From a bacterium (lineage in GTDB: Archaea; Nanobdellota; Nanobdellia; SCGC-AAA011-G17; GW2011-AR17), in NCBI GenBank assembly GCA_030697685.1, contig JAUYPF010000021.1:1-53118 (forward strand): a stretch of 53,118 bases of DNA, given 5' to 3'. The position numbers and the translations under genes were made by a program. A model generated the notes under the pieces. It did not search any database, was not told the DNA's origin, and saw only the letters and a list, made by a program, of their open reading frames with translations. Shown here in pieces: positions 21,549 to 22,007 of this stretch (positions are counted from its first letter, which is position 1; each line of letters begins with the position of its first letter).

Positions 21549-21678
21549 TTTATAAATAACAATATCATTTAAAACTTATCAAAATCTAGGCAAATTCTAT
21601 CCCAAAAAGTTAATAAAGTCTTAAAATTTTTAAAAGGACTATGCGCTGGTAATTTAGGGGTAGAATATCTGCCTTCCA

Positions 21679-21961
21679 GAGGTTTAATGGAAAGAAAAGA
21701 TATACTCAAAAGATGGCGTGATAAAAAAAGAAAAGAAGCTGAAAAATTACTAGGAAACAAATGTTACTTCTGTAACAGAAATAAAAACTTAGTATATCAT
21801 GAGAAAAAAGGACGAAAACATAGCCACGATCAAACTGCAGTATTAGTCGTTAAAAATCCTCAAAGCTTCGTAAGATTATGCCACCCATGCCACAGAGCTG
21901 TCCATTGGTTAATGGAAAAATTTGAATGGCAATGGGAAAAAATTACCGAAAACCTGAAGTG
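21679..21961 (+). other. Archaeal bulge-helix-bulge tRNA intron encoding an HNH protein
   Basis: Splice sites are placed after the second base of each 3-nt bulge (CA^G and TG^A), the usual archaeal endonuclease cut. This gives 283 nt between tRNA positions 37 and 38. The ORF (276 nt with stop) fills it: GAGG at intron bases 1-4 serves as Shine-Dalgarno, ATG is at bases 9-11, and the TGA stop is the 3' bulge itself, with its last A in exon 2. Excision therefore removes the intact stop codon. Confidence 0.9.
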
Positions 21962-21962
21962 A
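21687..21962 (+). CDS. HNH-family nuclease-like protein encoded in the tRNA-Gly intron
   Basis: A 91-residue basic protein. Residues 1-22 are a Lys/Arg-rich helix (MERKDILKRWRDKKRKEAEK). They are followed by a zinc-knuckle HNH core: CYFC (25-28), LVYHEKKGRKHSHD with the first HNH His, and LCHPCHRAVHW with the second CxxC and the final His near residues 70-80. HNH nucleases nick or cut DNA, and small ones act as homing endonucleases. GAGG four bases upstream supports ATG 21687. The location strongly suggests a homing enzyme that would target an intronless tRNA-Gly allele. The intact stop exists only in unspliced precursor; in a circularised intron the frame would run about 14 codons further to a new TGA. 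Activity is untested. Confidence 0.85.
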   Translation: MERKDILKRWRDKKRKEAEKLLGNKCYFCNRNKNLVYHEKKGRKHSHDQTAVLVVKNPQSFVRLCHPCHRAVHWLMEKFEWQWEKITENLK

Positions 21963-22007
21963 GCAGATCACCTGGGTTCGAATCCCAGCCAGCGCATTTA
22001 TTTTCTT

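Follow-up and report, generated by a model that had tools for sequence, protein, structure and literature searches.

In archaeal rRNA and group I introns, reported homing endonucleases are of the LAGLIDADG type (PMC4496867, PMC6125680), and the transmission of archaeal introns is poorly understood (PMC4496867). According to a 2014 review, archaeal tRNA introns are short, under 100 nt (PMC4033280). A nuclease borne on a tRNA intron is I-SspI, which, in the account of Bonocora and Shub (2001) as cited in PMC3984707, is the endonuclease of a cyanobacterial tRNA-fMet group I intron and is specific for the anticodon region. Circularisation of excised introns is known for archaeal tRNAs (PMC12558985).

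In this work, we have analysed a stretch of 53,118 nt (the window), contig C2 in the genome (1.07 Mb, 92% complete) of a tiny uncultured archaeon; Ca. Pacearchaeota records belong to the same class. Its tRNA-Gly(UCC) gene is interrupted by a bulge-helix-bulge (BHB) intron that is filled by an HNH-type ORF, probably that of a homing endonuclease. In the open-access full-text literature that we searched, there is no report of archaeal tRNAs whose BHB intron contains an HNH gene, or of an HNH family bound to tRNA genes, and the novelty is provisional.

Results

A tRNA-Gly(UCC) gene split by a BHB intron

Positions 21643-21996 of the window constitute a complete tRNA-Gly(UCC) gene split after position 37 by 283 nt (Table 1). 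The 5' exon (21643-21678) reads GCGCTGG TA ATTT..GAAT A TCTGC CTTCCA, and the 3' exon (21962-21996) reads A GCAGA TCAC CTGGGTTCGAATCCCAG CCAGCGC A. A preliminary description of the locus, made from the sequence alone, had claimed a 283-nt BHB intron here and had proposed a tRNA search with BHB prediction as the check. When introns are allowed, ARAGORN calls tRNA-Gly(tcc) with a 283-nt intron at the canonical position 37/38 and the tRNA otherwise complete, while the split gene is called neither by the default mode of ARAGORN nor by Rfam. The intron ends form a textbook hBHBh' fold with strict 3-4-3 geometry, in which all 10 pairs are Watson-Crick (6 bp in the outer helix). That is, the intron-aware search and the strict fold agree, and the claimed intron is right to the base. 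Four central and at least six outer pairs at the same register were obtained in 5e-6 of 200,000 mononucleotide shuffles of the intron. The minimum free energy fold of the whole pre-tRNA does not contain the BHB (-93.5 kcal/mol, vs -87.0 kcal/mol with the BHB enforced), a criterion that is not decisive for long inserts.

Table 1 Positions of the tRNA exons, the intron, the elements of its splicing fold and the ORF in the window.
Feature	Position	Strand	Remarks
tRNA-Gly(UCC) 5' exon, positions 1-37	21643..21678	+	anticodon TCC at 21675-21677; sequence reading, ARAGORN with introns
BHB central helix, 5' strand CTTC	21673..21676	+	tRNA positions 32-35
BHB 5' bulge, C36 A37^G1	21677..21679	+	predicted cut after 21678
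BHB intron, 283 nt	21679..21961	+	tRNA position 37/38; sequence, ARAGORN with introns, shuffles
BHB outer helix, 5' strand AGGTTT	21680..21685	+	overlaps the SD-like GAGGT (21679-21683)
HNH-type ORF, 91 aa, ATG to TGA	21687..21962	+	Zn-type Cys pairs C26/C29 and C65/C68; H38, H69, H73; Glu39 where the family has its second His
BHB outer helix, 3' strand AAACCT	21950..21955	+	codes part of the C-terminus (ENLK)
BHB central helix, 3' strand GAAG	21956..21959	+	
BHB 3' bulge, TG^A38	21960..21962	+	is the ORF stop codon TGA
tRNA-Gly(UCC) 3' exon, position 38 to discriminator A73	21962..21996	+	sequence reading, ARAGORN with introns

Genes for the splicing endonuclease EndA (PF01974, E=1.5e-27) and the ligase RtcB (PF01139, E=5.6e-146) are present in the genome. 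The RtcB gene (G000:C17:3145-5949; L360, L361) is a 1008-aa open frame interrupted by ~480 in-frame residues, and the insert is probably an intein. A second, intact tRNA-Gly(UCC), whose presence together with an unspliced locus here had been named as grounds for refutation, was not found by a joined-exon search of the 92%-complete genome. A group I intron was rejected for the window: it has no RF00028 match, while the group I cores that Rfam finds in the archaeal tRNA introns L131 and L145 score 77-79 bits.

An ORF that shares its ends with the splicing fold

The ORF starts with ATG at intron base 9 and takes up all of the BHB's terminal loop; its start region and its last codons thus also serve as splicing structure. 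Its stop codon consists of the last two intron bases and A38 of the tRNA, which agrees base by base with what had been described. Since the A of the stop lies in the exon, the excised linear intron has no stop codon: read from the ATG, it holds 91 codons and a leftover TG. If the intron is circularised, the frame continues as WRFNGKKRYTQKMA and then stops, with 14 extra residues; this run-on had been predicted too.

The first five intron bases, GAGGT, are complementary to the 3' tail of the 16S rRNA, GGATCACCTCCT, and the ATG follows GAGG after a short spacing of 4 nt. Of the 31 long ORFs in the window, 9 have an SD-like motif in front of them against a background of 10%, which is a moderate enrichment. 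The idea that GAGG belongs both to the splicing fold and to a ribosome-binding site is thus borne out for the dual position and the 16S complementarity, and its use by ribosomes is plausible from these sequence features. The SD-like bases, the start region and the stop are all part of splice elements that pair or are cut, so that on a single molecule splicing should be in competition with the passage of ribosomes. By this overlap, tRNA maturation and nuclease expression would be mutually exclusive, as had been proposed; a possible alternative is translation from the circular intron.

The same frame stays open in about 4e-4 of 100,000 intron shuffles. The G+C at the three codon positions is 0.42/0.30/0.30, without the low third position found in a 770-aa host gene.

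The protein is HNH-like but divergent

The ORF matches PHROG HNH family 8048 with E=6e-5, and its hhalign result against the tRNA-HNH profile is 92.8%. The Pfam HNH and NCBIfam models gave no match to the ORF, and the Pfam Endonuclease_7 match is weak (E=0.03). The AlphaFold2 model has a mean pLDDT of 90 and contains strand, strand and helix in the expected order. In Foldseek searches of viral models it matches HNH endonucleases (prob 1.00, TM 0.65-0.66, best E 1.2e-3), and against PDB only weak HNH-like matches (Cap5, SciA) appear; a sequence search of PDB with the ORF protein gave no match. By the AlphaFold model and the viral matches, the predicted structure has the bba-metal fold. The HNH type given in the preliminary description, which the absence of any HNH profile match was to refute, is supported by the PHROG match and the confident HNH-like predicted fold.

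In the alignment with the family, both CxxC pairs, H38, H69 and H73 match. The dyad is incomplete, reading H38-E39, while the second residue is His in 219 of the 223 family-like pattern hits from the fetched loci. This Glu after the conserved His is a departure of the active site that the preliminary description does not contain. In colicin-type HNH sites the second His is the general base, and with E39 in its place nuclease activity is uncertain. Overall, the sequence and the model describe the product as an HNH-like but divergent, putative nuclease. Single-protein scans of IMG/VR, GTDB contigs and phages gave no relative of the ORF. Several weak protein matches (L010-L015, L046, L047) were discarded as deacetylase-like genes, genes of other kinds, or reading frames that contain stops.

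The same site in relatives

Intronless tRNA-Gly(UCC) alleles, which had been suggested as something to look for in related genomes, exist within the same genus in G005 and G003, and in G002 this position is occupied by a BHB intron of 21 nt with the same ending, CTGAAGTG. Besides this intron at 37/38, the G002 gene (L025, G002:C21:38365-38474) contains a second, non-canonical intron of ~18 nt, which lies in the D arm. One upstream gene is common to the window, G002 and G005, which indicates that the sites in the two relatives are the orthologous locus. The window ORF has no match at E<=0.001 in other genomes of the order. On these sequence comparisons, the distribution is the pattern expected of a mobile or recently gained intron. 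The 21-nt intron of G002 could be the ancestral site that received the ORF, or a remnant.

HNH ORFs in other BHB tRNA introns

Across 281 genomes of the class, the family search located about 100 HNH sites, which were fetched and scanned for tRNAs. In L128 (Ca. Pacearchaeota, JAGVWO010000015.1, the same contig as L173), a tRNA-Gln(CUG) intron is filled by an HNH ORF. Its 12-bp outer helix holds an SD-like GGAG, the ATG follows 3 nt on, and the stop TGA is made of tRNA positions 41-43; ARAGORN calls this tRNA Pyl(cta), and the anticodon CUG comes from a manual reading of the loop. A tRNA-Gln(CUG) with this layout is also present in L174 (Aenigmatarchaeota, JACPJV010000014.1); there the ORF stop falls in the outer helix, and the T loop carries an additional intron. 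In a manual reading, the 3-4-3 geometry is kept by both BHBs, and each central helix includes a single U-C mismatch.

The proteins of L128 and L174 share 56% identity; by codon position, the identity is 0.67/0.77/0.48. As they vary most at third positions, such intron-borne ORFs are under protein-level constraint; dN/dS between intron ORFs is saturated. A search for homologous ORFs in other tRNA introns had been proposed as a check, and these two cases share the layout of the window. The statement that an HNH in a tRNA intron is unusual stands for BHB introns, where there are two further cases, but not for group I tRNA introns and tRNA-adjacent HNH genes, which are common.

A family of HNH genes bound to tRNA genes

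We have examined the 80 closest GTDB relatives, which were picked by protein similarity alone with a query alignment that had tRNA-linked seeds; most of the matches are non-seeds. A tRNA starts no more than 400 nt after the HNH stop in 65 of them, on the same strand in 61 (39 Gln-CUG and 13 Gly-UCC), and tRNA genes number 2.0 per kb in this interval, compared with 0.14 elsewhere in the loci. The HNH gene lies within a tRNA intron in 5 of the 80. Among the fetched loci in the order of L128, 26 of 27 are tRNA-linked. The tree gives one origin each for the Gly-upstream group (99/97), the Trp-upstream group (96/84) and the group-I-intron group, mostly tRNA-Asn (99/97). The clades are each tied to one tRNA, and their hosts span archaea, bacteria and phages.

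In DPANN archaea, Pacearchaeota among them, the genes of one clade of ~110-aa HNH proteins immediately precede tRNA-Gly(UCC) (L168-L171, L179-L212, L333-L354). HNH genes directly upstream of tRNA-Gln(CUG) occur in many haloarchaea (L190-L252) and some bacteria (L175, L178, L185). In six loci (L088, L340, L355, L356, L357, L358) the TAG stop is formed by nucleotides 8-10 of the downstream tRNA, which is tRNA-Trp where clearly typed, giving a 10-nt overlap. On a viral contig (IMG/VR 3300031227_000040, L272), an HNH gene ends inside tRNA-Gln(CUG), with TAG in the D-loop region. HNH-bearing introns of ~500 nt are found in archaeal tRNA genes typed as Asn by ARAGORN (L131, G338:C62; L145, G397:C18; L337; L344), and long tRNA introns with related HNH genes also occur in Omnitrophota and in an actinomycete (L231, L239, L245, L250). 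At L058 and L095 the adjoining tRNAs look incidental.

Membership of the window ORF in the Gly-, Gln- or Trp-upstream groups or the group I group was rejected: the family HMMs do not recover it significantly, and its branch length is 9.4. Its protein is, judging by sequence comparison, a distant relative of the tRNA-bound HNH family, and in the window an HNH gene may have entered a BHB intron independently.

Discussion

The best explanation of the locus, which we consider probable, is that a mobile BHB intron of tRNA-Gly(UCC) harbours the gene of an HNH-type homing endonuclease. EndA would cut and RtcB would join, so that the intron leaves the RNA, and the HNH product would be translated, now or recently, from unspliced or circular RNA. 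The protein would then cut an intronless tRNA-Gly(UCC) gene near the anticodon loop, and repair would copy the intron into the cut allele. The inserted intron would split the target, hide the site and thereby protect the host gene. This explanation is drawn from the exact overlap of BHB and ORF, the HNH profile, fold and Cys/His ligands, the EndA and RtcB genes and the lack of a second tRNA-Gly(UCC) in the 92%-complete genome, together with the intronless and short-intron orthologues, the absence of a homologous ORF from the other genomes of the order, the L128 and L174 layout with its variation at third codon positions and the wider family tied to tRNAs. Glu39, the codon-position G+C, the distant kinship to the tRNA-bound family and the lack of a close homologue speak against it.

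Because of the missing dyad residue, the main rival is a decaying copy: the intron would have come by HNH homing, lost part of the dyad and be heading towards a short BHB intron like the 21 nt of G002. We regard this as rather unlikely, yet it accounts for Glu39 where nearly all pattern matches have His, for the very long branch of the protein and for the short intron at the same site, and intron classes with a homing endonuclease gene, with a remnant and with a mini-hairpin are known for archaeal rRNA (PMC4496867). Against decay speak the 91 codons without stop or frameshift, the retention of both Cys pairs and of the C-terminal His residues, and the confident fold.

The altered dyad would also suit an HNH-like protein that is not a nuclease, e.g., an RNA-binding splicing helper or a DNA-binding repressor of the tRNA gene; some homing endonucleases are known to act as maturases, and the total overlap with the splice fold would fit splicing feedback. 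However, relatives with a short intron or none manage without the protein, and the His-His dyad is kept in the tRNA-bound relatives, which makes such a role improbable. It is more improbable still that the ORF is a chance open frame or an untranslated spacer in an ordinary long intron. The missing Pfam HNH match and close homologue could be read in that way, but the low frequency of open frames among the shuffles, the PHROG match in that very frame, the viral HNH fold match and the same layout in two other archaea all point the other way.

If the homing endonuclease reading is right, a tRNA intron with an HNH-type nuclease gene of its own offers a concrete mechanism of mobility, and very small tRNA introns are then predicted to be, in some cases, what homing introns have left behind. 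As the ORF, the splice fold and the tRNA overlap completely, the locus would form a testable switch that yields either the mature tRNA or the protein. The comparison has also revealed a large, apparently undescribed HNH family with clades that track single tRNA genes. As a tentative generalisation, it is possible that BHB tRNA introns carry HNH homing endonucleases in DPANN archaea and that the splice fold acts as a translation switch, with SD-like bases in the outer helix and a stop from tRNA bases, so that a transcript becomes either tRNA or nuclease (or its longer circle form), all this being part of a broad, apparently undescribed world of HNH genes each tied to one tRNA.

Comparison with known systems

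F-CphI and the DHHRN (endonuclease VII-type) group have a related bba-metal fold (PMC6083498), but F-CphI is free-standing beside a phage psbA intron, and the DHDH motif is absent from the window ORF. The tRNA-linked HNH genes (L168-L171, L088, L131, L145 and the haloarchaeal tRNA-Gln group) are likewise small and tied to one tRNA each, and some of their stops share tRNA bases; unlike the window ORF, most of them precede the tRNA or reside in group I introns, and the window protein is only their distant kin. I-SspI, as far as the citing source describes it, is alike in being a nuclease borne on a tRNA intron with the anticodon region as its target, which for the window is a prediction; its intron is a group I ribozyme, whereas the window has a BHB intron, spliced by proteins, with an HNH-like ORF. 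Moreover, I-SspI comes from a nuclease family other than HNH. The archaeal LAGLIDADG rRNA BHB introns of the I-DmoI type share with the window a nested nuclease ORF, splicing by EndA (predicted here) and the gene of a conserved structural RNA as target (likewise predicted here). They differ in that the host in the window is a tRNA rather than an rRNA, the protein is HNH-like rather than LAGLIDADG, and the ORF has 91 codons, no spare sequence and a stop completed by an exon base.
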